A DNA stretch of 64,000 bases from Marasmitruncus massiliensis. GTDB taxonomy: Bacteria; Bacillota; Clostridia; Oscillospirales; Ruminococcaceae. The notes beneath the pieces are model-generated. The model did no database searches and was not told the origin of the DNA. It saw nothing but the letters and a program-made list of their open reading frames with translations. Every line of letters begins with the position of its first letter. Within the stretch, counting starts at the first letter, position 1. The stretch lies in NCBI RefSeq assembly GCF_900186535.1, contig NZ_FYDE01000005.1, forward strand, positions 1,588,895 through 1,652,894, written 5' to 3'. Positions 24,551 to 40,027 of the stretch are shown one piece after another. A program made the position numbers and the translations under genes.

Positions 24551-25595
24551 ACTGACATCACAAATTAAACCGCTGGACATGCGGTACTGCGAAGCGGCCA
24601 AACGGCGCTGGGACAGCATTGCAAAACCCCTGAACAGCCTTGGCGCTATGGAACAGATCATCTGCAAAATCGCAGGGATAACCGGCAGTGCGGATGTGGA
24701 CATCAGCCGCCGCTGTGTAACAGTTTTCTGCGCGGATAACGGCGTTGTGGAAGAAGGCGTCACCCAGACAGGCAGCGAAGTGACGGCAGTTGTCACCGAG
24801 AATTTTACAAAAGGCAAAGCCAGCGTCAACGCGATGGCACGGGCCGCTCACTGCGAGGTCATTCCGGTGGATATCGGGGTGGAGCGGGATGTGCATGGGG
24901 ACGGGCTTTTGATCCATAAAATTTCGCGGGGGACCCAAAACATGGTGCGGGGGCCCGCCATGACCCGTGATCAGGCGATCGAAGCGATTGAATTCGGGGC
25001 AAGTCTGGCGAAAAGTTTAAAAGAACAGGGGTTCCAACTGATTCTGACGGGTGAAATGGGCATCGGGAATACGACGACCAGCTCGGCTGTCGCGTCGGTT
25101 CTGCTTGGAAAAGCGCCTGCGGAGGTTACGGGGCGGGGAGCCGGGCTGAGCCGGGAAGGCCTCATGCGCAAAATCGCCGCAATTGAAGCCGCGATCGCAA
25201 AGAACAAACCGGACCCCGCCGATGCGGTGGATGTGCTTGCCAAGATAGGCGGATACGACCTTGCGGGGCTGTGCGGTATCTTTTTAGGGGGCGCCGCTGT
25301 GCGCCTGCCGGTTATGATAGACGGCTTTATCTCCGCAACGGCGGCGCTGGCGGCATCCCGCATCTGTCCTGCGGTTACCGACAGCCTGCTGCCTTCTCAC
25401 TGCTCCAAAGAACCTGCCTCGGCGATGCTGATGCAGGCACTTGGCCTGCGCCCCTTCCTCTATGCCGACATGTGCCTCGGGGAGGGAACCGGCGCGGTTG
25501 CGAGCCTGCCGTTTCTGGATATGGGGCTTGCCGTCTACCGCGAAATGAGCACGTTTGAAGAAATCAAAGTGGAACAATATCAGCCGCTGAATTAG
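24537..25595 (+). CDS. cobT: Nicotinate-nucleotide--dimethylbenzimidazole phosphoribosyltransferase CobT
   Basis: A 352-residue CobT, which makes alpha-ribazole phosphate for the lower ligand from nicotinate mononucleotide and a base. Motifs: FCADNGVVEEGVTQTGSEVT, GEMGIGNTTTSSAVAS, LSREGLMRKI, and the C-terminal MGLAVYREM. The catalytic Glu region near the C-terminus, LGEGTGAVASLP, is intact. No bluB or bza gene for making the base is present, so the base is made elsewhere or taken up. Confidence 0.95.
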   Translation: MTLNELTSQIKPLDMRYCEAAKRRWDSIAKPLNSLGAMEQIICKIAGITGSADVDISRRCVTVFCADNGVVEEGVTQTGSEVTAVVTENFTKGKASVNAMARAAHCEVIPVDIGVERDVHGDGLLIHKISRGTQNMVRGPAMTRDQAIEAIEFGASLAKSLKEQGFQLILTGEMGIGNTTTSSAVASVLLGKAPAEVTGRGAGLSREGLMRKIAAIEAAIAKNKPDPADAVDVLAKIGGYDLAGLCGIFLGGAAVRLPVMIDGFISATAALAASRICPAVTDSLLPSHCSKEPASAMLMQALGLRPFLYADMCLGEGTGAVASLPFLDMGLAVYREMSTFEEIKVEQYQPLN

Positions 25596-25604
25596 GAGAA
25601 CAAG

Positions 25605-26129
25605 ATGCTGACACTGGTAACCGGAGGTTCGGCAAGCGGAAAATCCGAATTCGCCGAACAGCTCCTTTTGACATCCAAGGCAAGAAACCGTGTCTATCTG
25701 GCTACGATGGACCCCTGCGACAGGGAATGCCAAGCCCGGATTTTACGGCACCGTGCCGCGAGGGCGGGCCGTGGATTTCTGACGATCGAGCGCGCCGTCG
25801 GACTTTCCGGGACAGTGCTTCCGGAAGACAGCGCGGTTTTGCTGGAATGCCTTTCAAACCTTGCCGCCAATGAGCTTTTTTCCAAAGCGGGCGCGCACGA
25901 GCTGGCGTTTGAAGAAATTACAGGCGGTTTGGACGTTATTTGCGGCCAGGCAAAAGAGATTGTCGTTGTATCAGGTGAGGTGTTTTCGGACGGAGAGCCC
26001 TATGACCCGGAAACCCTGCGTTATCTGGAACTGCTGGGCCGCCTGAATGCCGCGATTGCCCAAAGGGCTGACCGGGTGGTGGAAGTGGTCTGTTCCATCC
26101 CGGTCTATCATAAGGGGGCAAAACTGTGA
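25605..26129 (+). CDS. cobU: Adenosylcobinamide kinase / guanylyltransferase CobU
   Basis: A 174-residue bifunctional enzyme that phosphorylates adenosylcobinamide and then attaches GMP. P-loop VTGGSASGKSEFAEQ at the N-terminus, VYLATMDPCDRECQARI, and HRAARAGRGF with the expected His (His-GMP intermediate). LLECLSNLAANELF holds the second conserved block. The ATG follows AGGAGAAC. It overlaps cobS by four bases (GTGA). Confidence 0.93.
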   Translation: MLTLVTGGSASGKSEFAEQLLLTSKARNRVYLATMDPCDRECQARILRHRAARAGRGFLTIERAVGLSGTVLPEDSAVLLECLSNLAANELFSKAGAHELAFEEITGGLDVICGQAKEIVVVSGEVFSDGEPYDPETLRYLELLGRLNAAIAQRADRVVEVVCSIPVYHKGAKL

Positions 26130-26896
26130 AAACATGGTGCCGTTCTTTTGCAGTCGCGTTTGCAATGTATTCCAGGATTCCCATGCCGCAGGTCGAATGG
26201 GCACCTCAAAGTATGCGGTATGCGCTTTGCTTTTTTCCCCTCGTCGGGGCGGTGAACGGAGCCCTGCTGTATCTCTGGCTTCTGTTTTGTACCCGTTTGG
26301 GTATCTCGCAGGTGACTGCCGCCGCCATAGCAGTGGTTCTGCCGGTTGCCGTGACGGGAGGAATCCATCTGGACGGCTTCTGCGACACGGTTGACGCGCT
26401 AGCTTCTCATCAGCCGCCCGCCCGCAAGCTGGAAATTCTCAAAGACCCGCACATCGGGGCATTCGCGCTGATCGGCTGCTGTGTCTATTTTTTATTGCAG
26501 TTTGGTCTGTGGGCGGAGTACCGCTTCCGGCCTGAAACTGCGTGGGTGCTGTCGCTTGGGTTTGTGCTGTCCCGCTCGATGAGCGGTTTTTCGGTGGTTA
26601 CATTTCCTTGCGCGAAGACCAGCGGTCTGGCCGCGGGATTTTCCAATGCCGCGCAGAAAAACGCGGTGCGAGCGGCAATGGCGGGATACGCACTTGTCAG
26701 CACAGCTCTAATGCTGTACCTTTCGCCATTTGCCGGCGGTGCGGCAGTTTTGGGTGCTGCTGCGGTTTTTATTTGGTATCAACGCCTGTCGATGAAGGAG
26801 TTCGGCGGGATTACGGGCGATCTGGCGGGCTGGTTTTTGCAGGTCTGCGAACTTGTGATGCTGTTCGCGGTCGTCGTCATGGGGGAATGGAAATGA
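26126..26896 (+). CDS. cobS: Adenosylcobinamide-GDP ribazoletransferase CobS
   Basis: A 256-residue integral membrane cobalamin synthase that joins adenosyl-GDP-cobinamide with alpha-ribazole phosphate. The catalytic motif GGIHLDGFCDTVDALAS with DGxxDTxDA is at about residues 73-89. Around it are six or seven membrane helices, plus FAMYSRIPMP at the N-terminus, typical of CobS. The start is GTG, inside GTGA overlapping the cobU stop. Confidence 0.94.
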   Translation: MKTWCRSFAVAFAMYSRIPMPQVEWAPQSMRYALCFFPLVGAVNGALLYLWLLFCTRLGISQVTAAAIAVVLPVAVTGGIHLDGFCDTVDALASHQPPARKLEILKDPHIGAFALIGCCVYFLLQFGLWAEYRFRPETAWVLSLGFVLSRSMSGFSVVTFPCAKTSGLAAGFSNAAQKNAVRAAMAGYALVSTALMLYLSPFAGGAAVLGAAAVFIWYQRLSMKEFGGITGDLAGWFLQVCELVMLFAVVVMGEWK

Positions 26897-27276
26897 AATT
26901 GATTCTTGGGGGCAGGCAGCAGGGAAAGCTGGAACTGGTCAAAGCAGAATATGCCTTAAAACCGGAAGAAGTCTGTGACGGCGCGCTCTGCCCGCTCGAC
27001 CGGATACCGCAGGCTCGCGCTGTCAACCATCTGCATCGTTTGGTCAGGCGGCTGATGGAGGCGGGGAAAGACCCCGCTGAATGGGTGGAACAGGCTTGCC
27101 TGCAAAACCCGGAGATTATTTGGATCACCGATGAAATCGGCTGCGGAATTGTGCCCGTTGACCCTTTGGAACGGGAGTGGCGGGAAACCACCGGCCGCAT
27201 CTGTTGCAATCTTGCGCAGCGCAGCGACCGAGTGGAACGGGTATTCTGTGGAATACCAACTGTGCTGAAAGGATGA
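26893..27276 (+). CDS. Second, short CobU-like protein
   Basis: A 127-residue protein related to CobU but truncated in architecture. It retains a P-loop-like MKLILGGRQQGKLELV at the start and the C-terminal ITDEIGCGIVPVDPLEREWRE followed by GRICCNLAQRSDRVERVFCG, a block conserved in the CobU family. The central part with the guanylyl-accepting His seems absent. Such short paralogs occur in B12 operons of Clostridia; their role is not established. ATGA overlaps join it to cobS and to the phosphatase gene downstream. Confidence 0.8.
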   Translation: MKLILGGRQQGKLELVKAEYALKPEEVCDGALCPLDRIPQARAVNHLHRLVRRLMEAGKDPAEWVEQACLQNPEIIWITDEIGCGIVPVDPLEREWRETTGRICCNLAQRSDRVERVFCGIPTVLKG

Positions 27277-27881
27277 CGCGAAAGATGGACATTTACCTGA
27301 TCCGGCATGCACAAACGCAGGGCAACCTGGAGCGGCGCTATATCGGGCGTACGGATGAGCCGCTGTCCGACGCGGGGATAGCGTGCTTCTGCAACCTTGC
27401 GTATCCGGCGGTCAGCCGCGTGATTACGAGTCCGATGAAACGCTGTCTGCAAACCGCTCAGATTTTATACCCGATGCAGGAGCCGGTGATTGAAGAAGAT
27501 TTCAGGGAATGCGATTTCGGTGATTTTGAAGGGAAAAACCACGCGGAGCTGGAAAACGATCTGGCATATCGCAGTTGGATTGCCGGCGGCGGGACACAGG
27601 CTCCGCCGAACGGCGAATCGATGGGGGCGTTTAAGCGCCGCTGCTGCGATGCATTTGCCGCTGCGGTGGAACAGGCGTTTTCGGACCGCTTGCTCGGTAT
27701 CGCGTTTGTCACGCATGGGGGAACGATTATGGCGATTCTCGAGCGGTTCGCCGTTCCCGCAAGGCCGTTTTATGACTGGCAGATTGAGAACCTCGGCTGC
27801 TGGAAAGCAAAGGCATCCGAACCGGAATGGATGGATCGGCATATACTGACAGATTTGGAACGATTTTATGCGGGGGAATAA
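27273..27881 (+). CDS. cobC: Histidine phosphatase, probable alpha-ribazole phosphatase CobC
   Basis: A 202-residue phosphoglycerate-mutase-like phosphatase. The RHG motif LIRHAQTQGN carries the phosphohistidine; SPMKRCLQTA, ECDFGDFEGK and FVTHGGTI with the second His complete the active site. In this operon it most likely removes the phosphate from alpha-ribazole phosphate or from cobalamin phosphate. The ATG at 27273 lies in an ATGA overlap; the ATG at 27285 is an alternative start. Confidence 0.87.
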   Translation: MTRKMDIYLIRHAQTQGNLERRYIGRTDEPLSDAGIACFCNLAYPAVSRVITSPMKRCLQTAQILYPMQEPVIEEDFRECDFGDFEGKNHAELENDLAYRSWIAGGGTQAPPNGESMGAFKRRCCDAFAAAVEQAFSDRLLGIAFVTHGGTIMAILERFAVPARPFYDWQIENLGCWKAKASEPEWMDRHILTDLERFYAGE

Positions 27882-27884
27882 GCA

Positions 27885-28859
27885 ATGTTTTATGCTGTTT
27901 CGGCGGTAGTGCTGGGCTTTTTGCTGGATCTGGCCCTTGGCGATCCGCACTGGCTGCCGCACCCGGTCCGGCTGATCGGCTGGCTGATTGCCCGCCTGGA
28001 ACAGCTGATCCGCCCCGTGCTGCCGAAAACGCCGCGGGGGGAGCTTCTGGGCGGCATCCTGCTGACACTGATTGTGGTGGGCCTGTCCGGAGGCGTCAGC
28101 TGGTGCATGCTCCATTTTGCCGCCGTTTATCTGGGAAAACTGCCCGCGTATCTGCTCGAAGTAGTTATGTGCTACCAGCTCATTGCCGTCAGATCGCTGA
28201 AAGCGGAAAGCATGAGGGTTTACCGGGAACTGCAAAAAGGCGACCTTGCTTCCGCGCGAATCGCGGTTTCTATGATCGTGGGGCGGGACACGGAAAAACT
28301 ATCCCCGGCGGGGGTCGCGAAAGCGGCAGTGGAAACCGTGGCCGAAAACACCTCGGACGGCGTCGCTGCGCCTCTGTTTTATCTTTTGATTGGAGGAGCA
28401 CCGCTTGGCTTCTGCTATAAAGCAATCAACACGCTGGATTCCATGATCGGCTACCGCAATGAGCAGTATCTCTCTTTCGGGAAGTTTGCAGCGAAACTGG
28501 ATGACGCGGTGAATTTTATCCCTGCGCGCTTGTGCGCACTGCTGATGATTGCCGCCGCGTTTTTTACCGGGCTGGACGGCCCGGGAGCATTCCGCATCTG
28601 GAAGTGCGACCGGAAAAACCATAAAAGCCCCAACAGCGCCCAGACCGAAGCGGCGTGTGCCGGGGCGCTTGGCGTTCAGCTTGCGGGCAATGCCTTTTAC
28701 GGCGGTGTCCTGTTTGAAAAGCCGACCATCGGGGACGCGCGGCGCATGGTGATTCCGAATGACATCCGGCTCGCCAACCGGCTGATGGTTGTTACCTCCC
28801 TGCTGTCACTTGCCGCCTTTTCCCTGATGAAGTTATTGATCATCTTCCTTTTGCACTGA
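27885..28859 (+). CDS. cbiB: Adenosylcobinamide-phosphate synthase CbiB
   Basis: A 324-residue membrane protein that attaches aminopropanol phosphate to adenosylcobyric acid. Motifs: LDLALGDPHWLPHPVRLIG at the N-terminus, SMIVGRDTEKLSPAGVAKAA, ETVAENTSDGVAAPLFY, AINTLDSMIGYRNEQY and RDHKSPNSAQTEA-type text (KNHKSPNSAQTEAA). Several helices span the membrane. Length is normal. The ATG follows GGGGGAATAAGCA. Confidence 0.95.
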   Translation: MFYAVSAVVLGFLLDLALGDPHWLPHPVRLIGWLIARLEQLIRPVLPKTPRGELLGGILLTLIVVGLSGGVSWCMLHFAAVYLGKLPAYLLEVVMCYQLIAVRSLKAESMRVYRELQKGDLASARIAVSMIVGRDTEKLSPAGVAKAAVETVAENTSDGVAAPLFYLLIGGAPLGFCYKAINTLDSMIGYRNEQYLSFGKFAAKLDDAVNFIPARLCALLMIAAAFFTGLDGPGAFRIWKCDRKNHKSPNSAQTEAACAGALGVQLAGNAFYGGVLFEKPTIGDARRMVIPNDIRLANRLMVVTSLLSLAAFSLMKLLIIFLLH

Positions 28860-28871
28860 TAGGAGAACATT

Positions 28872-29930
28872 ATGACCGATTTCGCTCACGGCGGAGATAT
28901 TTACGCCTATCCCGATAAACTGCTGGATTTTTCCGCCAATATCAGCCCGCTGGGGCTTCCGGACAGCGTACAATCCGCACTGACTGCTTCCATTGAAAGT
29001 TGGTCGGGATATCCCGACCCTTATTGCCGGAAGCTGAAAGCCGCGATTGCCAGACACCATACGATTCCGGAAGCGTATATTACATGCGGCAACGGGGCGG
29101 CGGAATTGATCTACAAGGTCGTGCAGGCGCTGAAGCCCCGCCGTGCTCTGGTCACCGCGCCGTCCTTTTCCGAATACCGGCAGGCGCTCTCTCTGATGGG
29201 ATGCGGGATTCTCGATTATTTTCTGGATGCGAAGGACGGCTTTTGCGTGACGGAGAAGCTGCTGACCGTACTGAACCCGCCGCTGGAACTGCTGATCCTA
29301 TGCAATCCGAACAACCCTACGGGGCAGACGATGGAACCGGGTCTGCTGAATAAAATCATCAAAACCTGCGCGGAGAAAAAAATTCATATTTTGCTGGATG
29401 AATGCTTTATTCCGTTTTTGGAGGATGCGGACGCACATACGAAAATCCCCCTGCTTTCGGAATATCCGAATCTGCTCATTCTGCGGGCGTTCACAAAATT
29501 CTACGCGATGGCGGGCCTGCGTTTGGGGTACCTGCTGTGTTCCGATGAAGAGCTGCTTCAAAGAATTTCGGTCTGCGGGCAGCCGTGGAGCGTTTCGGCT
29601 CCGGCACAGATCGCGGGCGTGGCGGCGCTGGCGGACAGGGAATATGCGGACAGGCTTCGGCATGTGATTCGAAAGGAACGCGCCTATCTGACCGGTGCCT
29701 TAAAACAATTGGGGCTGTGCGTGATCGGATCTCAGGCAAATTATCTGTTCTTTCAATATAATGGAATGAATCATTTGAAGGAACGGCTGCTGAAAGACAA
29801 AATCCTGATCCGTTCCTGCGGGAACTATCTTGGGTTGGATCTGGATTTTTACAGGGTGTCGGTCCGGACACATGTAGAGAATCAGCGGCTGATAGAGGCT
29901 ATTGCAGGAATCATCGGAGAGGAGGGGTAA
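28872..29930 (+). CDS. cobD: L-threonine-O-3-phosphate decarboxylase CobD
   Basis: A 352-residue PLP enzyme of aminotransferase fold I that makes (R)-1-aminopropan-2-ol phosphate for CbiB. FAHGGDIYAYPDKLLDFSAN at the start, GYPDPYCRKLKAAIA, NPNNPTGQ, and FTKFYAMAGLRLGYLL with the PLP lysine are all CobD-like. It lies next to cbiB, whose substrate it makes. The homologous histidinol-phosphate aminotransferase is the main alternative, but the context and HGGDIY argue for CobD. Confidence 0.92.
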   Translation: MTDFAHGGDIYAYPDKLLDFSANISPLGLPDSVQSALTASIESWSGYPDPYCRKLKAAIARHHTIPEAYITCGNGAAELIYKVVQALKPRRALVTAPSFSEYRQALSLMGCGILDYFLDAKDGFCVTEKLLTVLNPPLELLILCNPNNPTGQTMEPGLLNKIIKTCAEKKIHILLDECFIPFLEDADAHTKIPLLSEYPNLLILRAFTKFYAMAGLRLGYLLCSDEELLQRISVCGQPWSVSAPAQIAGVAALADREYADRLRHVIRKERAYLTGALKQLGLCVIGSQANYLFFQYNGMNHLKERLLKDKILIRSCGNYLGLDLDFYRVSVRTHVENQRLIEAIAGIIGEEG

Positions 29931-29936
29931 GAGGAT

Positions 29937-31433
29937 ATGGCAAAAACCATTATGGTGCAGGGGACGATGTCCAATGCTGGGAAAAGCCTGCTGGCGGCGG
30001 CGCTCTGCCGGATTTTCCGGCAGGACGGCTATTCGGTCGCCCCGTTTAAATCGCAGAACATGGCGCTGAACTCCTATATTACGCGCGAGGGGCTGGAGAT
30101 GGGGCGCGCGCAGGTCATGCAGGCGCAGGCGGCCGGAATCGAACCGTCTGTGCGGATGAATCCGATTCTGCTCAAGCCGTCCAGTGATACCGGCTCGCAG
30201 GTCATTGTAAACGGTGAAGTGTTGGGGAACATGAGCGCCGCCGAATATTTTAAAATGAAAGGCAGTCTTGTCCCGCAGATCATGCAGGCGTTTCACAGCC
30301 TTGCGGAACAATATGAGATCCTTGTGCTTGAGGGGGCGGGAAGCCCGGCGGAAATCAATCTGAAAAGCGACGACATTGTCAATATGGGGATGGCGAGGCT
30401 GGCCAAAGCTCCGGTCCTGCTTGCGGGGGATATTGACCGTGGGGGCGTTTTCGCGTCCCTTGCCGGCACGATGATGCTGCTGGAACCGGATGAGCGCGCG
30501 ATGGTAAAGGGACTGGTGATCAATAAGTTTCGCGGAGACAAGGCGATCCTGCAGCCCGGGCTGGATATGATTGCAAAGATTACCGGTGTGCCCGTCCTGG
30601 GAGTCATCCCATATCTGCATCTGGATATTGACGATGAAGACAGCCTTTCCGAGCGTTTGGAGAAAACCGACTCTTCGGGACTGGTGGACATCGCGGTCAT
30701 CCGACTCCCGAGGCTTTCGAATTTTACGGATTTTAACGCGCTTTCCGCAATCAAAGGGGTCTCCGTGCGTTATGTGAAAACGGTTTTTGCATTGAAATCA
30801 CCGGATTTGATTATCCTGCCCGGCACAAAAAATACAATGGAGGACCTGATGTGGCTGCGGCAGTGCGGGCTGGAGTCCGCAATTCAGAAATTCGCGGCGG
30901 CGGGCGGCGCAGTATTCGGCATCTGCGGCGGATTCCAAATGCTTGGCGAAACCCTCAGCGACCCGGAGCATGTGGAACACGGAGGCATCATGAAGGGCAT
31001 GGGGCTGCTCCCGGTTGCAACTGTCTTTGAACCGCAGAAAACCCGCACCAGAGTGACAGGCTGGTTTGGAAAGATGGAGGGAGTGCTCAAAGGACTTTCA
31101 GAAGTTCCAATTGAAGGATATGAGATCCACATGGGCAGGACAGAATGCGCTGACACAATCAGCAGCCTGCTGACCGAGGATGGCGAGACTAAGCAGGACG
31201 GCGCTGCTTCCGGTAATATTTACGGAAGCTATGTGCATGGAATTTTTGACCGCCCCGAGAGCGCAAAAGCCCTGGTGATTGCCCTTTGCAAAGCAAGAGG
31301 GGTCGATTGGGGCAATCTGGAGACCTTTGATCCGGTTGCTTACAGGGAACAGCAGTACGACCTGCTCGCGCAGTCTGTGAGGGAAAGTTTGGATATGGAA
31401 AAAATCTATGAGATTTTGGAGGCGGGTATATGA
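29937..31433 (+). CDS. cbiP: Cobyric acid synthase CbiP
   Basis: A 498-residue glutamine-dependent amidase that amidates the b, d, e and g side chains. P-loop-type start [20 protein letters not shown] with [13 protein letters not shown], then [14 protein letters not shown]. The C-terminal glutamine amidotransferase shows [11 protein letters not shown] with the catalytic Cys and [16 protein letters not shown] with the His region. Length is normal. It overlaps cobO by four bases. Confidence 0.96.
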
Positions 31434-31957
31434 ATCAGGGGCTTGTTCATGTCTACTGCGGAGACGGGAAAGGAAAGACAACCGCGGCAATAGGGCTGGC
31501 GGTCCGCGCCGCGGGATGCGGAAAACAGGTGCTGATCGTGCAGTTCCTGAAAGGGCAGGAGACGGGGGAACTCCAATCTCTTGCGCGGATTCCTGAGATC
31601 ACTGTTTTGCGGGGAAAGGCAAGCAGCAAATTTACTTTTCAGATGGACGAACGGGAATTGCAGCAAACCTACGACCTCAACTCCAAAAATCTTCTGACAG
31701 CGGTGGAAACAGCGCGGGAAGGCAAATGCGACCTGCTGATTCTGGACGAAATCCTTGGGGCCTTAAGCTGTGATTTGATCGACAGCGATCTTCTGCGCAG
31801 CCTGGTTGAGAAGAAGCCGGAAGCGCTGGAGCTTGTGCTGACCGGACGCAACCCTCCTCGATGGCTGCTTGACCATGCGGATTATGTCACCGAGATGGTA
31901 AAGCGCAAGCATCCGTTTGATCAGGGAATACCGGCGCGTAAAGGAATTGAACTGTAA
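31430..31957 (+). CDS. cobO: Corrinoid adenosyltransferase, CobA/BtuR type
   Basis: A 175-residue ATP:cob(I)alamin adenosyltransferase. The P-loop is [33 protein letters not shown] and [14 protein letters not shown] follow, and [13 protein letters not shown] is the C-terminal signature. It forms the Co-C bond to 5'-deoxyadenosine. The name is shared with other CobA proteins, so the type (BtuR/CobO) is stated. Confidence 0.95.
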
Positions 31958-31969
31958 AGGGGAATTGCC

Positions 31970-32605
31970 ATGAAGGTGCAGCTGCAAAATGTGCTTCCGG
32001 CCGACATCGAACGGCGCAGTATGGAAATCATCGGGGAACTTCTCTGCGAGCGGGGCATTACGCTGGACCCGGTGCAGGAACCGGTCATCAAGCGGGTCAT
32101 CCATACAACAGCGGACTTTGACTATGTAGAAAATCTGATCTTTTCACAGGACGCTGTAAGAAAGGCGCAGAAAACCATCCGTGAGGGCGCTTCGATCGTA
32201 ACGGATACGCAGATGGCAAAATCCGGAATCAATAAGAAGGAGCTTGCACGCTATGGGGGAGAGGTGCTTTGCTTTATGTCGGACGAAGATGTTGCCGTCG
32301 CTGCCAGGCAAAACGGGACGACGAGGGCTAGTGCCAGCATGGATAAAGCGCTGTCTGTTGGCAAGCCGCTGATTTTCGCGATCGGGAACGCTCCGACCGC
32401 GCTTGTCAGGCTGTATGAACTGATCCAGGAAAAAAAGCTGTTTCCGGAGCTGGTCATTGGGGTGCCGGTCGGGTTCGTCAATGTGGTCGAGTCCAAGGAA
32501 CTTATTTTGCAGGCTCCCGTACCCCATATCGTGGCGCGCGGGCGCAAAGGCGGCAGCAATGTCGCGGCGGCAATCATGAACGCGATTTTATATAGCATGC
32601 AATAA
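31970..32605 (+). CDS. cbiC: Cobalt-precorrin-8 methylmutase CbiC
   Basis: A 211-residue CbiC/CobH, which moves the C11 methyl group to C12 to give cobyrinate. Motifs: ERRSMEIIGEL, VIKRVIHTTADFDYV with the catalytic His, TDTQMAKSGI, and GVPVGFVNVVESKE. It is the last gene of the operon; a strong terminator starts two bases after its stop. Confidence 0.95.
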   Translation: MKVQLQNVLPADIERRSMEIIGELLCERGITLDPVQEPVIKRVIHTTADFDYVENLIFSQDAVRKAQKTIREGASIVTDTQMAKSGINKKELARYGGEVLCFMSDEDVAVAARQNGTTRASASMDKALSVGKPLIFAIGNAPTALVRLYELIQEKKLFPELVIGVPVGFVNVVESKELILQAPVPHIVARGRKGGSNVAAAIMNAILYSMQ

Positions 32606-32606
32606 G

Positions 32607-32639
32607 AAAGCCGGTGTGCAGTCTGCACACCGGCTTTTT
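32607..32639 (+). terminator. Terminator of the cobalamin operon
   Basis: Perfect 14-bp stem (32607-32620 with 32624-32637), 3-base loop, and a run of five T. Confidence 0.9.
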
Positions 32640-32775
32640 GTACGAGAAAATCCCGTGTTAGACGCGGGGTTCCGTGGAGCTTTTGCGATGAAAAAACTCC
32701 TTTTGACGATGATGGGTATTTTTTGGAATATCTGAAATAATAAACCTATAGTTCAGAGTTTAAAGGAGACTGCTT

Positions 32776-33720
32776 ATGTCGGATAATACAAAGGATCTTA
32801 ACGCTTTGTCTGCAAGAGCGGCATATCAGCTTGCAGATGTTGTCAAAACTGTACCGCAGTTTGAATCGATTACTCCAAGATGGCTTTGCAGGCTGATGGA
32901 GTTCAAGCCGCTGAAAACGGGTGTGTTTCGGCTGAATAAGGTTACGGAAGGGCATACGCCGCTGGATATGCTGTGCAACCGGACCGGAAATGATAACATT
33001 CCGGAAGGATTTGTAGATTATGTTACCAAGCCGCGGGAGTATATTTTAGATTCGATTTCCACGATCATCAATATCAACACGCGGGTATCGGATATCTACA
33101 ATCATCCGTATGACCAGATTCATGAACAGATTCGATTGGCGGTCGAAAGCATCCATGAAAGACAGGAAAGCCAGTTTATCAATGATGAGGATTACGGGCT
33201 ATTGCATAATGTTGCGGATTCCCAGCGTCTGAAAGCGCGGGGCGGATTCCCTACGCCGGACGATCTGGATGAGCTGATTACGAAAGTATGGAAAGAACCC
33301 TCGTTTTTTCTGGCGCATCCCAAAGCAATCGCCGCGTTCGGACGGGAATGTACAAAGCGTGGGGTCCCTCCCGTAACGGTAACCTTATTTGGATCCCCTT
33401 TTATATCCTGGCGTGGGATTCCGTTAATACCGACAGATAAGCTGTTCGTGGATGGGCAAAGAAATCCCGGGAACGGCAAGGGCAAAACGAATATTCTGCT
33501 CGTCAGGACGGGCGAAAAGAAACAAGGCGTGATTGGCCTCTATCAAACCGGACTGCAGGGCGAACAGTCTAATGGGCTGTCGGTTCGATTTATGGGAATT
33601 GATAACAAAGGAATCGGAATCTATCTGTTATCCCTGTACTGTTCGGCAGCCGTATTGGCGGATGATGCCCTCGCAGTATTGGAAGATGTGGAAATCGGGA
33701 ATTATTATGACAATGAATAA
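32776..33720 (+). CDS. Family 2A encapsulin shell protein (SrpI-like)
   Basis: A 314-residue protein matching the SrpI-type family 2A encapsulins in length and text: ALSARAAYQLADVVKTVPQF at the N-terminal arm, then SIHERQESQFINDEDYGLL (the long helix of the HK97 E-loop/P-domain region), and TLFGSPFISWRGIPLIPTDKL near the C-terminus. These proteins have the HK97 phage-capsid fold and assemble into hollow icosahedral shells in the cytoplasm. The next gene, a cysteine desulfurase, is the characterised cargo of this encapsulin class. AAAGGAGAC precedes the ATG. The desulfurase start lies inside the last 14 bases of this gene, so the two are coupled. Confidence 0.9.
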   Translation: MSDNTKDLNALSARAAYQLADVVKTVPQFESITPRWLCRLMEFKPLKTGVFRLNKVTEGHTPLDMLCNRTGNDNIPEGFVDYVTKPREYILDSISTIININTRVSDIYNHPYDQIHEQIRLAVESIHERQESQFINDEDYGLLHNVADSQRLKARGGFPTPDDLDELITKVWKEPSFFLAHPKAIAAFGRECTKRGVPPVTVTLFGSPFISWRGIPLIPTDKLFVDGQRNPGNGKGKTNILLVRTGEKKQGVIGLYQTGLQGEQSNGLSVRFMGIDNKGIGIYLLSLYCSAAVLADDALAVLEDVEIGNYYDNE

Positions 33721-35176
33721 TACTGGATTGTTTGTCAGCGATGAGCAAATCGATGCTTGCGTGGGGGCTTTCAAAGAAAACAATATTGCGGATACAAAAC
33801 TGATTGAACAAATTGCCAACACGTATTTTTCGGCCTTTAAGACAAGCGGTGAAGGCCCCGACCAGGTGCAGGATGAACTTAGCAATACCATTTCCGCTGT
33901 ATTTACGCAATCGGGCCTCCTTCCGGAAGGGTGGTCGCTGCCCGATTTATGGAACTCCCGGTATGATATTGATGCAATCCGGGCTGATTTTCCCATCCTG
34001 TCCGAAAAGGTAAATGGAAAAGACCTCGTTTGGCTGGATAATGCAGCGACGACACAAAAGCCAAAGTGCGTCATTGACAGGCTCACCTATTTTTATGAGC
34101 ATGAAAATTCCAACGTCCATCGGGGAGCGCACACACTGGCGGCACGCGCGACAGACGCATATGAAGAAGCACGGGAAAAGATACGGTACTTTCTGAACGC
34201 GCCGTCATCATCGGAACTTATATTTTTGCGCGGAGCAACCGAAGCAATCAATTTAATTGCGCAGACATATGGAAAAGCGAATATTGGGGAAGGCGACGAG
34301 GTACTGATCTCGTGCCTCGAACATCACGCAAACATCGTTCCGTGGCAGATGTTATGCGCCGAAAAAGGCGCCAGTCTGCGTGTAATTCCGATAGATGAGA
34401 GCGGGCAGGTTAATTTGAACGAATATGCTCGGATGCTCGGACCGAAAACAAAGATCGTGTCGCTTGCGCATGTATCGAACGCGCTTGGTACAATTGTGCC
34501 GGTTGGAGAGATGATATCCGCCGCCCACCGGTCCGGGGCGAAAGTGGTGGTAGACGGCGCACAGGCAATTTCCCATATCAAGGTGGACGTACAGGCGCTT
34601 GACGCTGATTTTTATGTCTTCTCCGGGCATAAGGTTTATGGACCGACCGGGATCGGCGTACTGTACGGAAAATTGGATATCTTAAATCAAATGGCGCCGT
34701 ATCATGGCGGAGGCAACATGATACGCGATGTTACTTTTGAAAAAACGCAGTATCAGGCCGCCCCGCACCGGTTTGAGGCAGGTACAGGAAATATCGCCGA
34801 CGCGGTGGCGCTTGGAACTGCGATTGATTATGTTTCCCGGACAGGAATGGATGCCATCCGAGAACATGAACATTCCCTTCTGGAATACGGACAGGAAGAG
34901 CTGCTGAAAGTCCCCGGAATAAGGCTGGTCGGCTGTGCTAAACAAAAGACGAGTATTCTTTCTTTTGTCGTACAGGGGATATCCAATGAGAAAATCGGTC
35001 AGGCGCTGAATGCGGAGGGCATAGCCGTCCGTGCAGGCCACCATTGTGCTCAACCGGTTTTGAGACGGCTGGGAACAGAAGGCACGGTTCGGGCATCGCT
35101 GGGAATGTATAATACAAAAGAAGAAATTGATAAAATGGCCTGGGTTTTAAAAAGTGAACTATCAGGCCGTTTATAA
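33707..35176 (+). CDS. SufS-type cysteine desulfurase, probable encapsulin cargo
   Basis: A 489-residue PLP enzyme that takes sulfur from cysteine as a persulfide. Residues from about 90 are the SufS/CsdA fold: WLDNAATTQKP, LRGATEAINL, ISCLEHHANIVPWQ, FSGHKVYGPTGIG with the PLP lysine, and VRAGHHCAQPVLRRLG with the catalytic Cys. The first about 88 residues are not part of SufS. They look helical and acidic and end in LLPEGWSLPDLW. In this family the N-terminal extension directs the enzyme into the shell. It overlaps the shell gene by 14 bases; ATG at 33707 or 33713. No sufBCD or iscU scaffold is adjacent. Confidence 0.92.
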   Translation: MTMNNTGLFVSDEQIDACVGAFKENNIADTKLIEQIANTYFSAFKTSGEGPDQVQDELSNTISAVFTQSGLLPEGWSLPDLWNSRYDIDAIRADFPILSEKVNGKDLVWLDNAATTQKPKCVIDRLTYFYEHENSNVHRGAHTLAARATDAYEEAREKIRYFLNAPSSSELIFLRGATEAINLIAQTYGKANIGEGDEVLISCLEHHANIVPWQMLCAEKGASLRVIPIDESGQVNLNEYARMLGPKTKIVSLAHVSNALGTIVPVGEMISAAHRSGAKVVVDGAQAISHIKVDVQALDADFYVFSGHKVYGPTGIGVLYGKLDILNQMAPYHGGGNMIRDVTFEKTQYQAAPHRFEAGTGNIADAVALGTAIDYVSRTGMDAIREHEHSLLEYGQEELLKVPGIRLVGCAKQKTSILSFVVQGISNEKIGQALNAEGIAVRAGHHCAQPVLRRLGTEGTVRASLGMYNTKEEIDKMAWVLKSELSGRL

Positions 35177-35204
35177 AAGGGCAAACAAATCTGAAAAACA
35201 GAAA

Positions 35205-35254
35205 GGAAAAACCCGCAGAGCAGCTTGTCAAGCCGACCTGCGGGTTTTTCCTTT
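35205..35254 (+). terminator. Terminator of the encapsulin operon
   Basis: Perfect 14-bp stem GGAAAAACCCGCAG (35205-35218) with its complement at 35238-35251, a 19-base loop, and T-rich DNA. Confidence 0.8.
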
Positions 35255-35280
35255 CGTACTCCAAGAGATAATGAGTTTGC

Positions 35281-35478
35281 TTACCGAATCTTACGTTTCA
35301 ATATCGAGATGATCCACCTTGTACTTCCATAGCTTTGAGCGGCAGCGACGGTGCTTACTAACTCCCATCCCTGCAACCCTAACTCATTCAATTCATTCTG
35401 AAACACACCTTGGTCGACTTTCCCTCCAAACACTCCTTTGGCGTCAGTAAACAGTGTTTTGTATTCAAATTGCTCCAT
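35281..35478 (-). CDS. DUF4177 domain protein
   Basis: A 65-residue protein of the DUF4177 group: EQFEYKTLFTDAKG at the start, then the conserved core LNELGLQGWELVSTV and a basic C-terminus RWIISILKRKIR. Function unknown; these small beta-alpha proteins are common in Firmicutes. The ATG at 35478 has GGAG about 11 bases upstream; a TTG at 35493 is possible. It is convergent with the desulfurase gene. Confidence 0.75.
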   Translation of the reverse strand: MEQFEYKTLFTDAKGVFGGKVDQGVFQNELNELGLQGWELVSTVAAAQSYGSTRWIISILKRKIR

Positions 35479-35541
35479 ATTCTCATGCTCCAATCGATAT
35501 CATTGATAGTGTCAGATTCCGTAATTGGCATATCGTATTGA

Positions 35542-37134
35542 TCATTGCTTTCCGGTTCTCATTACAGGCATATCCGACCGGTGCAAAACTCCCTTTGAAA
35601 ACGCGAAACAGCCGAATGCGGCAAAGAGCTCCCATAATGCCAGTATCCCGCACCCAAGCAAAACGCCAATGTCGCCGAACATGCTGCCAATGACAATCGC
35701 GGCGATCAGGCCGGGCAGCATAATGACCAAAACTGCAATGGTATAAATGACCATCAAAAGCCCGGCGCTGATGTCCGCGCCCGTCCAGCGCAGCGAAAGA
35801 TAGTTGATGCCCAGGAGCAAAAAGGAAAACAGTACGTAAACCGCGATGGCCGCAACAATCAGCAGAACGGACGCGCCCGTAATAAGTCCCGCAGTGAAGA
35901 AGATGAAAATGGCTTCCACCAATACCTTGAACGCGATCTCCACGTTGCTCCAGACGATTTTACGAAAAGAGCTCTCAGGGATCAGATAGATATAATGCAC
36001 ATAAAGCTCCTTCAGGCCCCGTCCCGTCCCGATCAGGAATATCTGCATCCACATCAGAACCTGCAGAAGCGTGATAATCCCCCCGCCTCCGTCCTTCAGC
36101 AACAGGGAAAACAAAGCCGCGCCCAATACCGTGATGACGGATGACAGTCCCCAAAGGCCAAGCCGGTTTGCACGGAAGGATTCCCGCAAATGCTTATAAA
36201 AAAGGGCGCTTGCTCCCAAACCTCCGATGCCGGTTCTGGAAACCTTCACTTTTTTCGTCGAGGCGGCTTCCGTATTCATGTTCCCTTGGGATATGACACG
36301 TTTTTTCTCAAACGCGGTTTCCGTAGCAACCAGCACGTCTTCATAATAATCGGGATTGCTCAGGGCGATATAAAGGATCAGCAGTGCCGCTGAAAGCAGA
36401 ATTAGCCCGAAAAACAAAAGTCCGTTCCCCACATCGCCGGAAATCAATGAAATGACACCTTCCGACGCCCAGCCCGCCACCGGAGCCCAGGCGATGAAAG
36501 GGGAACGCAGCGTGTTTTCCAGCGCCAAAAGCGGATTGCCGGTTTTAAAAAACTGCACGCCGGCATAAACGATCAACGGAAGAAAGACCAGGACGGAAAT
36601 CACCTTGACCATAAGCTTGCGCGAAGGGTTTCCGTTTGTCAGGCTGTATATCAAAAGCGACAGGATCTGGAGCAGACAGACGGCCAGAATAAATCCGAGC
36701 AGTAAAAGCAGCACTGCGTCAAAGCCAATGCCAAAGCTGGTGCCGAGGGAATTGCTTTGGAACAGAATAAAAAAGCCTGCCCCAAATGCCATCTTTGCCA
36801 TGCGGATGATTCCATACATCAATATCAGGCGGGGGCTGACTGGGGAGACGAACAGGAAATTGACGTCGTTCATGTCGAAAATGACGTCGCCGTTTGACAG
36901 CCCCTTTTGTATGGCAATCGCAACAAACAGCAGAGTGAACAAGAAAAAAATGCCCTTGAGCCAGATGATGTCAAGCGTGCTGTCTGCGCTTTGGCGCGTA
37001 AACATTGAAAGGATAAGGACCCCGCCGAGCATTGCAATGACAAAGATCCATAATATCAGTTTTGCAGGTTTTCGCAAAAGCTCCAGAAAGCTGTTTTTTA
37101 CGCTCCTTGCCAGCAGAAAAACGAGGCTGCTCAT
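35542..37134 (-). CDS. Putative ABC exporter membrane subunit
   Basis: A 530-residue protein with about ten to twelve hydrophobic segments, of the 'putative ABC exporter' permease type found in Firmicutes. Two halves of about 240 residues flank a hydrophilic stretch (residues 270-320) containing FEKKRVISQGNMNTEA. It overlaps the upstream ATPase gene by four bases and so forms an exporter with it. The substrate is unknown. Confidence 0.75.
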   Translation of the reverse strand: MSSLVFLLARSVKNSFLELLRKPAKLILWIFVIAMLGGVLILSMFTRQSADSTLDIIWLKGIFFLFTLLFVAIAIQKGLSNGDVIFDMNDVNFLFVSPVSPRLILMYGIIRMAKMAFGAGFFILFQSNSLGTSFGIGFDAVLLLLLGFILAVCLLQILSLLIYSLTNGNPSRKLMVKVISVLVFLPLIVYAGVQFFKTGNPLLALENTLRSPFIAWAPVAGWASEGVISLISGDVGNGLLFFGLILLSAALLILYIALSNPDYYEDVLVATETAFEKKRVISQGNMNTEAASTKKVKVSRTGIGGLGASALFYKHLRESFRANRLGLWGLSSVITVLGAALFSLLLKDGGGGIITLLQVLMWMQIFLIGTGRGLKELYVHYIYLIPESSFRKIVWSNVEIAFKVLVEAIFIFFTAGLITGASVLLIVAAIAVYVLFSFLLLGINYLSLRWTGADISAGLLMVIYTIAVLVIMLPGLIAAIVIGSMFGDIGVLLGCGILALWELFAAFGCFAFSKGVLHRSDMPVMRTGKQ

Positions 37135-37844
37135 GACTTGCCCTCCTGGCTGTTACCTTCCGTAATGGCAAAATAAACGTCCTCAAGGCTCTGGTTTGCA
37201 TCAAGGTCCGCGCGGCGGCAGACGCGTTCTATTCTCCCCTTAACCATAATATAGGTTACATCCCAGTTTTCTTCCATACTTTCGATCATATGGGTGCTGA
37301 CGAGCAGGGCGCAGCCGCTCTCCCGCAGCTCCGAAATGACCGCTTTCAGCTCGCGGATACCATGCGGGTCAAGGCCGATAAGAGGCTCATCCAAAATAAT
37401 GGCCTTGGGCTGCGGAAGGAGCGCGCAGCACACGCTTACCTTTTGCTGCATTCCTTTTGAAAGTTCTTTGCCTAACTTCATCTTTTTGTCGTCCAGTTCA
37501 AATCTTTGGAGCAGTTTTTCCGCGTTTTCCTCCCAGGTGCTCAGCCGATACGCTTTAGCAATGAATTCAAGATGCTCCGCCACCGTCAGCATCGGGTACA
37601 GCACGGGAAACTCCGGCACATACCCCAAAAGCCGCTTTGCCTCTGTTGTATGGTTTTCATACCCGCCGATAGTAACCGAGCCGTCAAAACGCAGAAGTCC
37701 GCAAACTGACTTTATCAGAGTTGACTTTCCCGCGCCGTTTGGCCCGAGGAGCACGGCAAGCTCGCCGCTGCCCACCGACAGGGTAATGTTGTCGTTGGCC
37801 TTGAACCTGCCGTATTTTTTCGTCATGCCAAGAACATCAATCAT
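37131..37844 (-). CDS. ABC transporter ATP-binding protein
   Basis: A 237-residue ATPase. Walker A is LLGPNGAGKSTLIKSVCG, signature ELSKGMQQKVSVCCALL, Walker B AIILDEPLIGLDP and switch region VSTHMIESME. The SKGMQQK signature is that of bacterial drug or lipid exporters of the CcmA/YadG type. The ATG at 37844 follows AAGGGAGA; an in-frame TTG further up is less likely. It powers the permease encoded right after it. Confidence 0.9.
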   Translation of the reverse strand: MIDVLGMTKKYGRFKANDNITLSVGSGELAVLLGPNGAGKSTLIKSVCGLLRFDGSVTIGGYENHTTEAKRLLGYVPEFPVLYPMLTVAEHLEFIAKAYRLSTWEENAEKLLQRFELDDKKMKLGKELSKGMQQKVSVCCALLPQPKAIILDEPLIGLDPHGIRELKAVISELRESGCALLVSTHMIESMEENWDVTYIMVKGRIERVCRRADLDANQSLEDVYFAITEGNSQEGKS

Positions 37845-38066
37845 AAAATCTCCCTTATCAATCAAGAAAAGTAATTTTTTTATTAGTATAGCACAATTGA
37901 ACGCCCGAATTCAAATCACTGAGAGCAGAACCGTAAAACGATGCCGGCCGCCAACTTTGAAACCGGTAAAACTCATTGCCGTCCCGAAAAATAAATTGTT
38001 TCCTGCTCTATCTTTGCGCCGTCCCGCATATGCCTGTAATAGATGCATCATGTCAGGAGGCGTAGT

Positions 38067-38576
38067 ATGAAAGATTTGATTTCACCGGAACGATTCCGGT
38101 CGAATGCTCCTTACCCTGCGGTAACCATTCGCGACGGCGACCAGCGTTATGCCCGGATGATTTCCGATGCCTACACTGGAAAAGGGTCTGAAACGACCGC
38201 AATTGCCCAATATAGATTTCACCGGTTACTCCTGAATGAACTGCCGGATATCTATACGGCTTATCAGCATATAGCGGCGACAGAGATGATTCATCAGGAT
38301 TTACTCGGAAACCTTCTTAAAAATTTGGGCATGGCGCCAAAATTATGCTCGGGAACAGTCAATCAGTTCTGGAGCGGAAAATTTCCCGACTACAGATGTA
38401 AATTGCCCGATATTTATGAGGCCGACGCGCAGGGGGAGAGGAACGCCATCGCTCATTACTCCATGTTGGCTGAACGGATCAAAAATGAAAGTATGCAGGC
38501 GTTGTTCCGCCGTATCATCCTGGATGAAGAACTTCATCTGTCTTTTTTAAATTCTCTGATTGCTGAATTCAGATAG
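38067..38576 (+). CDS. Ferritin-like (rubrerythrin-type) four-helix protein
   Basis: A 169-residue protein with the metal-site pattern of ferritin-like diiron proteins: a Glu in KGSETTAIAQY, EMIH in AATEMIHQDLL, a Glu in QGERNAIAHY and EELH in LDEELHLSFL, each from one helix of a four-helix bundle. There is no rubredoxin domain. It may store or detoxify iron or peroxides; function is not known. The ATG at 38067 follows AGGAGG. Confidence 0.8.
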   Translation: MKDLISPERFRSNAPYPAVTIRDGDQRYARMISDAYTGKGSETTAIAQYRFHRLLLNELPDIYTAYQHIAATEMIHQDLLGNLLKNLGMAPKLCSGTVNQFWSGKFPDYRCKLPDIYEADAQGERNAIAHYSMLAERIKNESMQALFRRIILDEELHLSFLNSLIAEFR

Positions 38577-38610
38577 AATCCCAACCCTTTTTTCGTTCGA
38601 AGCACAAAAA

Positions 38611-38643
38611 ATGAGGCGGCGGAACTTCGTACGTACCGCCGCC
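38611..38643 (-). terminator. Terminator of the amidase-domain lipoprotein gene
   Basis: Perfect 8-bp GC stem (38615-38622 with 38636-38643), followed on the minus strand by CATTTTTTG. Confidence 0.65.
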
Positions 38644-38675
38644 AACTTAAAAGATCATGTTAGCTGCAACTTTTA

Positions 38676-39878
38676 TCATTTTATAAAATACGCCGGATTA
38701 AAAAAGCGGAGATCAACATTTACAAGATCCGAGTAATAAACAAAGCAGCCCGGCGAATTTTGAGCAAACATAAGGGTAGAGCTGTCAACCAGGAGCAGGC
38801 TGTGGTTGAACCCGTCACCGCCTGAGTTTCTGGTGTGAACTTGGACAAGGCCGCCGGTTTTGAGCTGTTTAATGGAGTTGACAAGATATCCCCGAAGCCC
38901 TTTTTGCTTTTGAAGTATCGCGTAGTTCCAAAAATGCTGAACATTTTCCCATGCGGGTGAGCCTCCTCCTGCCCCCGCATACCATTCGGAAGTCATAAAC
39001 GAGGGCTCGTTTTCCCCCTCACCGAATCCATTCAAAATACATTGCGAAGTGAAATTGGCGCAATTGCCCATCCAGTCTCCGATGTCATAAAACAAAGGGT
39101 TCGGAGATTGACAATAGGCTTTGGCATATTCCGCCGCTTTTGCACCATGATAGGAAAAAGCGCCGTTGGGTATGTCGATTTGATTGTCTGAGGGGATTTC
39201 CCGGAACTCTCTGGACAACTCCTCCAGCATTTTCTCTTCAGACGGCAGTTCAAGCTTCGCGTTTCGCCCATATCTGCGCACAGAACCGGGGAAATAATGA
39301 AACGTAATGATCCAGAAATCATCGACTTGCTTCAGCCTCATGGTGTGCTGTGCGTTCATTGCAAATACAGGAGGGTAAGCCCGGCTTTTTTCCCCGGTAA
39401 TCGTAAAATGAATGGTCAGTTCATCTTCATTCGAAATTCCACGGTTTTTCCAGAATTCCATACGGATGTCTTCCGGTTCCTGGTCATAAGTGATTGTATA
39501 AGGATATGCCTGCCTTTCAACATAGCAATCATGATTTTCAGCAAGCAGTCTCCTGCGCTGAATCAGTGTTTTTAGCCATACGGCAGAATTTTGATTGGCT
39601 GTTATGCTCATGTCCATCAAATGGCTCATGTCGATATAGTCCAAATCTATATATGCTTTATATTGCAGCTCAAAAAATTTTTCAATGGTCTCCTGTGCAG
39701 TCAGGCCTGCCGTTTTAATTGCCTGATATGACAGTTCGCTTGGATCGGAGGAACTGCTCATAACAGATGAACCGGCTGATGAGTCGGCGGCGCTTTCTGC
39801 ACCATGCGGGATCTCATTTTCAGAGGCACATCCTGCGAACAGCAGGCAGAAACATAAAAAACAGATATATTTCATCAT
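38676..39878 (-). CDS. Amidase-domain lipoprotein
   Basis: A 400-residue protein with lipobox FAGC (Cys about residue 17), an Ala/Ser-rich linker, a middle region of about 180 residues (AQETIEKFFELQYKAY onwards), and a C-terminal Amidase_6 domain: AAEYAKAYCQSPNP, DWMGNCANFTSQCILNG with the probable catalytic Cys, and NHSLLLVDSS with the His. It is likely anchored outside the membrane and may act on peptidoglycan or on peptides. Its C-terminal domain is related to the small protein at 15403-15882, with a different layout. Confidence 0.8.
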   Translation of the reverse strand: MMKYICFLCFCLLFAGCASENEIPHGAESAADSSAGSSVMSSSSDPSELSYQAIKTAGLTAQETIEKFFELQYKAYIDLDYIDMSHLMDMSITANQNSAVWLKTLIQRRRLLAENHDCYVERQAYPYTITYDQEPEDIRMEFWKNRGISNEDELTIHFTITGEKSRAYPPVFAMNAQHTMRLKQVDDFWIITFHYFPGSVRRYGRNAKLELPSEEKMLEELSREFREIPSDNQIDIPNGAFSYHGAKAAEYAKAYCQSPNPLFYDIGDWMGNCANFTSQCILNGFGEGENEPSFMTSEWYAGAGGGSPAWENVQHFWNYAILQKQKGLRGYLVNSIKQLKTGGLVQVHTRNSGGDGFNHSLLLVDSSTLMFAQNSPGCFVYYSDLVNVDLRFFNPAYFIK

Positions 39879-40027
39879 GTAAATACCCTCGACGACGTTA
39901 CAAAATTTTGATAAATACTATTATATCAAAAAGACGTACGTAAGTCATGAATGAAAATTGTCGATTTGATACGATCTTTTATTGTGTTGATTTCTACAAT
40001 CAATAGCGAACACATGGTATTAAAATA

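Follow-up and report, generated by a model that had tools for sequence, protein, structure and literature searches.

Elemental sulfur is stored by the family 2A encapsulin system of Acinetobacter. Excerpts of PMC8346489 count 1281 family 2A desulfurase operons in 12 phyla, give serine acetyltransferase and rhodanese as their most enriched accessory genes, and tie these systems to sulfur, while the involvement of desulfurase encapsulins in sulfur storage is mentioned in an excerpt of a paper from 2025 (PMC12407261). The system that serves best for comparison is that of Synechococcus elongatus PCC 7942, formed by the shell protein SrpI and the cysteine desulfurase CyD. As described in excerpts of PMC8049743, the solved structure of SrpI has the HK97 fold, with F262 and Y273 near the cargo density, and the encapsulated enzyme reaches almost seven times the kcat of the free form. 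CyD carries an N-terminal domain of 225 residues with two motifs, LARLANEFFS and AASPYYFLDG, the second of which is found in "most" sequences. The first 100 residues of CyD load GFP, less well than the whole domain; loading fails with a piece bearing only the second motif, and no measurable encapsulation is seen with CyD devoid of the domain (PMC8049743, same excerpts). Which part of the tail addresses the desulfurase to the shell is left open there.

The window analyzed here is a stretch of 64,000 nucleotides from Marasmitruncus massiliensis, the genome of which (3.76 Mb, 5 contigs) contains the shell gene as one copy. The initial annotation had placed in it a SrpI-like shell gene overlapping a SufS-type desulfurase gene by 14 bases, as an operon with its own terminator in a probably clostridial genome. 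Both reading frames and their overlap were found as it gave them (Table 1), a strong hairpin follows the desulfurase gene, and the clostridial label fits the relatives of the locus. The ATG of the desulfurase was chosen as a plausible, unproven start, and the open frame extends further upstream.

Table 1. Features of the shell-desulfurase locus (positions in the window).
Feature	Position	Strand	Basis and remarks
Family 2A encapsulin shell gene	32776..33720	+	314 aa; NF041162, PF19307 and SrpI (6x8m) matches
SufS-type cysteine desulfurase gene, probable cargo	33707..35176	+	489 aa; TIGR01979 passed
Shell/desulfurase gene overlap, 14 bases	33707..33720	+	ORF coordinates; also in relatives
Ribosome-binding site of the shell gene, AAAGGAGA	32762..32769	+	Sequence reading
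Terminator hairpin of the upstream cobalamin operon; left bound of the unit	32605..32639	+	RNA folding
Terminator hairpin 3' of the desulfurase gene	35201..35255	+	RNA folding
Short N-terminal desulfurase tail, ~84 residues	33707..33958	+	Profile match and structure model
Packaging motif 1, IEQIANTYFSAF, residues 33-44	33803..33838	+	Motif profile, shuffle p 0.0008

In RNA folding, the hairpin 3' of the desulfurase gene reached -36 kcal/mol (z -7.57) and the one that closes the upstream cobalamin operon -27 kcal/mol (z -6.75), with 0/200 shuffles as good in either case; neither was listed by a consensus terminator scan. Because strong hairpins flank both sides, the shell and desulfurase genes look like one closed unit, within which coupled translation via the 14-base overlap is plausible from the gene arrangement. 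An Rfam scan of positions 24000-40000 gave no match, and a tRNA search of the window found none. Farther downstream (38064-38573), 3' of an ABC transporter, there is a gene for a ferritin-like/rubrerythrin-domain protein, with no sign of operon membership.

Judged by sequence homology, the shell protein is a family 2A encapsulin. It passed the NCBI model for 2A shells (NF041162; 493.2 bits, cut-off 380) and PF19307 (329.5 bits, cut-off 22.8), and stayed below the cut-off of the 2B model (388, cut-off 400); the cNMP-binding domain insert, a 2B trait, was absent from the Pfam matches of the 314-residue protein. The best solved relatives by sequence were SrpI (6x8m, 393 bits) and 8t6r (392 bits), with 171/304 residues (56%) identical in the alignment with SrpI. 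A structure prediction from 30 close sequences was of low quality (mean pLDDT 52), and its top Foldseek matches were 8t6r, 6x8m and 8wol, all of them 2A shells, a result that is partly sequence-driven. The HK97 fold of the shell, claimed in the initial annotation, is thus upheld by homology to SrpI rather than by the weak prediction of the protein itself, and nothing in these results pointed to another fold. F262 and Y273 of SrpI correspond to F272 and Y283 of the window protein and are kept, respectively, in 96/101 and 101/101 rows of an alignment that includes duplicates and the window. The protein would be expected to assemble by itself into a T=1 particle about 25 nm across, as we infer.

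The HK97 fold is common to tailed-phage capsids, and this speaks for the shell gene being a phage capsid remnant. Nevertheless, the protein passed the 2A model and the gene pair is conserved across phyla, on which grounds a remnant was rejected; moreover, only 2/50,697 phage records matched, both longer than 300 kb and with sufS beside the shell gene. The probability of a remnant can be taken as close to nil. The two records (H53 and H54) are named Acinetobacter phage, carry the annotations mmpI and sufS for the two genes, and are probably bacterial DNA.

Concerning the desulfurase, it passed the SufS model TIGR01979 (562.4 bits, cut-off 475.1), and its top PDB match was 8kg1, a cysteine desulfurase (560 bits). 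With the NCBI model for 2A cargo, NF041166, the score was 786.7, below the cut-off of 800, with profile positions 1-222 unmatched, and formal assignment to that model was therefore rejected. K309 and C447, which we take to be the PLP lysine and the catalytic cysteine, are kept in 11/11 desulfurases of the clade described below. In the structure model (mean pLDDT 82.6), the catalytic part was mostly confident and the first 84 residues were low; short helices were modelled in this tail at residues 12-24 and 30-40.

The SufS-type domain would also suit a housekeeping enzyme that feeds Fe-S cluster assembly, with the shell in an only regulatory role, and in one relative (L159) a SufBD-core protein and a SufC-like ABC ATPase (under the cut-off) are encoded upstream of the shell gene. 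However, SufBD was absent from the window genome in a search with a model that was positive in 14/14 controls, so the desulfurase has no SUF scaffold to feed, and an IscU-type protein (161 bits) adjoins a NifS/IscS-type desulfurase elsewhere in the genome. A housekeeping role appears very unlikely. Among the five best Aminotran_5 matches of the genome, only the window gene reaches the SufS cut-off. SufS-type enzymes can also split selenocysteine, and another desulfurase-like gene of the genome (L083) adjoins a putative selA, read by eye, which would be in line with a shell that handles selenium instead of sulfur. Yet no selenium genes adjoin the window gene, and it is to sulfur that 2A systems are tied (excerpts of PMC8346489), so that a selenium compartment is given a very small probability.

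The homologous loci were compared by using 80 loci from named records, which are the best 80 of 371 relatives. The desulfurase gene lies directly 3' of the shell gene and on the same strand in 79/80 of them, the contig of the remaining one (L033) ending 483 bases after the shell gene; the pairing on which the initial annotation had staked its reading is thus the usual one among homologs. Of the 80 named loci, 56 have an overlap of 14 bases and 10 have one of 11 bases, and 14 bases are found in 11/11 loci of the clade of the window. These counts were made with a start rule that prefers starts near the shell stop; another rule gives -59 for the window desulfurase. In a joint tree of shell and desulfurase (44 rows chosen out of 101), the window falls in a clade of 11 rows (support 100/94) together with L005, L011, L014, L032, L008, L020, L159, L132, L133 and L153. 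Quick single-gene trees recovered the nine clade members then available, with SH-aLRT values of 83 (shell) and 92 (desulfurase). L005, L011, L014 and L032 form one group (100/100), to which the window is sister (92/80), and in these four sisters both the catalytic and the docking residues are intact.

Three side observations were made on these loci. Shells and desulfurases from bins of Fibrobacter, Ruminobacter and Succinivibrionaceae (L016, L022, L030 and L071) group among those of Lachnospiraceae, which suggests either cross-phylum exchange in the rumen or mis-binned contigs. Identical shells occur in L002 and L003, bins of one study named Massilibacillus and Sphingobacterium, where a mis-binned contig is probable. 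Finally, in the leaders of L005, L011 and L014, a CCTCC stretch pairs in a hairpin with the ribosome site of the shell gene, which lies downstream of it (0/100 shuffles by pairing in L005 and L011, and 0/100 by energy in L014), while in the window the corresponding count was 11/100, not significant.

The N-terminal tail of the window desulfurase has ~84 residues, versus 225 in Synechococcus. It was searched with a profile of motif 1, of 12 columns, derived from 47 distinct sequences from loci outside the clade. The best match in the window enzyme resembles LARLANEFFS and scored 14.5 (5000 shuffles; Table 1), versus a top score of 2.1 in the remainder of the enzyme. The profile is weak on some canonical tails, with a score of 1.0 (p 0.11) for Synechococcus (L090) and negative scores for L092 and L095, where the start choice probably cuts the tail; because of this weakness, the profile is to be considered tuned to the form of the motif found in anaerobes. 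With patterns written after reading the sequences, the window tail matched neither the second published motif AASPYYFLDG nor the Y-x-P-x-V element that the anaerobes carry.

Within the clade, the window, L132, L133 and L153 have a clear motif 1 (p 0.0002-0.0008) and L159 has a weaker one (p 0.015). Significance was not reached in L008 and L020 (p 0.14 and 0.26, respectively) or in L005, L014 and L032, and L011, with a tail of 17 residues, scored below zero (p 0.02). The second-motif pattern was found in 1/11 clade loci versus 79/86 others. Tails in the clade span 17-96 residues (median 69), versus a median of 150.5 residues in the other loci, yet 17/86 of the latter also have tails under 100 residues, at least two of these (L015 and L095) being affected by the start choice; the idea that the short tail is special to the clade was dropped in view of those 17 loci. 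Outside the clade, L134 (G282) has a divergent 2A shell (48% identity) and a desulfurase tail of 43 residues in which motif 1 is missing and a motif-2-like YYFL is present.

The state of the tails bears on whether the desulfurase is still packaged. If it were not, the tail would be a decaying remnant, and shell and enzyme would work side by side, or the shell would hold something else. The window tail of ~84 residues without the second motif would fit such a loss, and so would the tails of 17-64 residues with no clear motif 1 in the four sisters, which seem to be without this motif too; since this sister group has no clear motif 1, tail decay may be in progress. It also fits that CyD deprived of its N-terminal domain was not encapsulated (excerpts of PMC8049743). 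On the other hand, motif 1 is present in the window, and the gene pair, the overlap and the docking residues are kept throughout the clade. Loss of packaging is considered unlikely for the window. Taken together, the window and its sisters can be read as a set of natural deletions in which a single motif or no motif is left.

No gene for rhodanese, serine acetyltransferase or cysteine synthase was found beside the window pair. By BLAST, a rhodanese occurs within 6 kb in 0/10 clade loci (those with at least 1 kb upstream) versus 74/82 others (three duplicate genomes dropped), in a screen that was not fully sensitive and missed both a domain in L159 and the annotated rhodanese of L092. Pfam matches revealed the former: just upstream of the pair, L159 encodes a protein in which a metallo-beta-lactamase fold and a rhodanese domain are fused. 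The clade count is therefore at least 1/10, and the statement that the clade has no rhodanese was dropped; no further rhodanese was found in the ten other clade loci by Pfam among the ORFs nearest the pair. All three accessory genes were missing (BLAST) in 7/7 clade loci versus 4/68 others, for loci flanked by 1 kb of upstream and 3.5 kb of downstream sequence, a comparison in which the Fisher value ignores shared ancestry. The four others are L094, L134, L154 and L162, on account of which the absence of accessory genes was likewise dropped as a trait special to the clade. The window form of the system is reduced, with a short one-motif tail and no nearby accessories, and most of the clade shares these losses. 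Elsewhere in the window genome there is one cysE-type gene over the cut-off, and rhodanese domains occur.

Two neighborhoods deserve separate mention. In L159 (7379-10349), genes for an ABC ATPase (best NCBIfam match SufC, under the cut-off), a SufBD-core protein and the metallo-beta-lactamase-rhodanese fusion precede those of shell, desulfurase and Tlp. Cobalamin genes adjoin the pair in the window (25605-32605) and in L153, and in no other searched locus at the same strength; those of L153 are on the opposite strand, show 28-50% identity and may be there by chance.

An unexpected result was that six clade members, versus 0/87 other loci, have a spore gene, for Tlp or CotJ, as a neighbor of the pair. 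Tlp, a small acid-soluble spore protein (PF19824), is encoded 3' of the desulfurase in L008 (from 3451; 83 bits), in L020 (from 4322; 82 bits) and, by BLAST, at the same place in L159; these three genes have their own ribosome site and lie ~20-75 bases after the desulfurase stop. Spore-coat genes of the CotJ type are located upstream of the shell gene, on the other strand, in L032 (6364-7546) and L011 (4875-5545), as detected by Pfam, and at the upstream end of L005, by BLAST. Considering loci with enough flank, Tlp was found in 3/8 of the clade versus 0/78 others and CotJ in 3/7 versus 0/79. This contrast is only suggestive, because the queries were taken from the clade itself, the neighborhoods probably go back to no more than two events, and many of the loci outside the clade belong to groups that, to our knowledge, are not known for spores. 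Neither Tlp nor CotJ had a match in the 64 kb of the window, sporulation sigma factor patterns matched 0/11 clade leaders, and an open-licence literature search returned nothing on 2A encapsulins and spores. A broader interpretation, tentative and on balance doubtful, would be that the window is part of a separate clostridial branch of desulfurase encapsulins that shed most of its partners and lost the tail stepwise, from a long two-motif domain to one motif (window) and to no clear motif (the four sisters), and in which relatives have a sulfur compartment made during sporulation that would serve spores or germinating cells as a source of thiols or sulfur. The spore link in relatives, if real, would be a new setting for desulfurase encapsulins, not found in the literature searched.

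With regard to its origin, the shell was found in 0/60 sampled relatives of Marasmitruncus massiliensis (10 of the same genus, 26 of the same family and 24 of the same order). In broader samples it was found in 6/394 genomes of the order, 7/391 of the class and 7/398 of the phylum, with the window genome counted each time. Two of the seven carriers at class level have long 2B-like frames, and the class-level search is one without a positive control, since 14/14 control genomes were negative, Synechococcus elongatus included, whose srpI is on a plasmid. The other carriers in the family of the window, L157 and L158, fall in the other large branch of the tree and have rhodanese. As 0/10 relatives of the genus have the shell, horizontal gain of the operon is probable and is the simplest reading, although the sampled congeners may instead have lost it. 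Joint transfer with the cobalamin genes was rejected for the window: cbiC is present in 9/10 congeners, and the nine stretches fetched contain cobalamin genes and neither shell nor desulfurase.

It seems likely, from all the above, that the locus is a horizontally acquired, reduced family 2A operon with a desulfurase loaded by motif 1 and a shell that holds sulfur, assembly, loading, coupling and storage being the parts that we infer. Shell and desulfurase would share a transcript, and the 14-base overlap would probably couple their translation. The helical motif 1 of the tail would dock the desulfurase close to F272 and Y283 on the inside of the T=1 shell, ~25 nm in size. Cysteine would enter the shell and be converted by the desulfurase to alanine and sulfane sulfur, which would be kept or stored apart from the cytosol before reaching acceptors encoded elsewhere; the missing SufBD narrows where this sulfur can go. 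The initial annotation had likewise suggested coupled synthesis and the storage or shielding of sulfur, which stay putative here; the short tail, the lack of accessory genes, the clade and the probable horizontal gain are additions to it.

The kind of system is one already known; what was not found in the literature searched is the reduced clade, with its uneven tails and spore neighbors, and an open-licence search returned nothing on a reduced clostridial 2A operon. Compared to SrpI-CyD of Synechococcus elongatus PCC 7942 (pANL, 6x8m), the shell is 56% identical over 304 residues, and the desulfurase likewise combines a SufS domain with an N-terminal motif of the LARLANEFFS kind (excerpts of PMC8049743). 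The differences are that CyD is 234 bases away from srpI, whereas the window genes overlap; that the 225-residue, two-motif domain is replaced by the ~84-residue tail with one motif; and that cysK, epsC and rhodanese stand alongside SrpI-CyD and none of them beside the window pair. The 2A encapsulins of Acinetobacter baumannii (8t6r) and Mycobacterium smegmatis (8wol) belong to the same shell family, the window shell being 57% identical to that of A. baumannii. The 2A operons of rumen and gut anaerobes (Lachnospiraceae, Ruminococcus, Treponema, Synergistaceae) have the same gene pair, mostly with an overlap of 14 or 11 bases, and differ from the window by an upstream rhodanese in most of them, often a serine acetyltransferase, and a second motif (Y-x-P-x-V) in most tails. 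Within the 11-locus clade, which includes Sporobacter termitidis DSM 10068 (L008), the window differs from six of the other ten, where Tlp or CotJ is beside the pair, and from L159 with its upstream fusion, having neither trait itself; it shares with the clade the short tails, the absence of the second motif (10/11) and the 14-base overlap (11/11).
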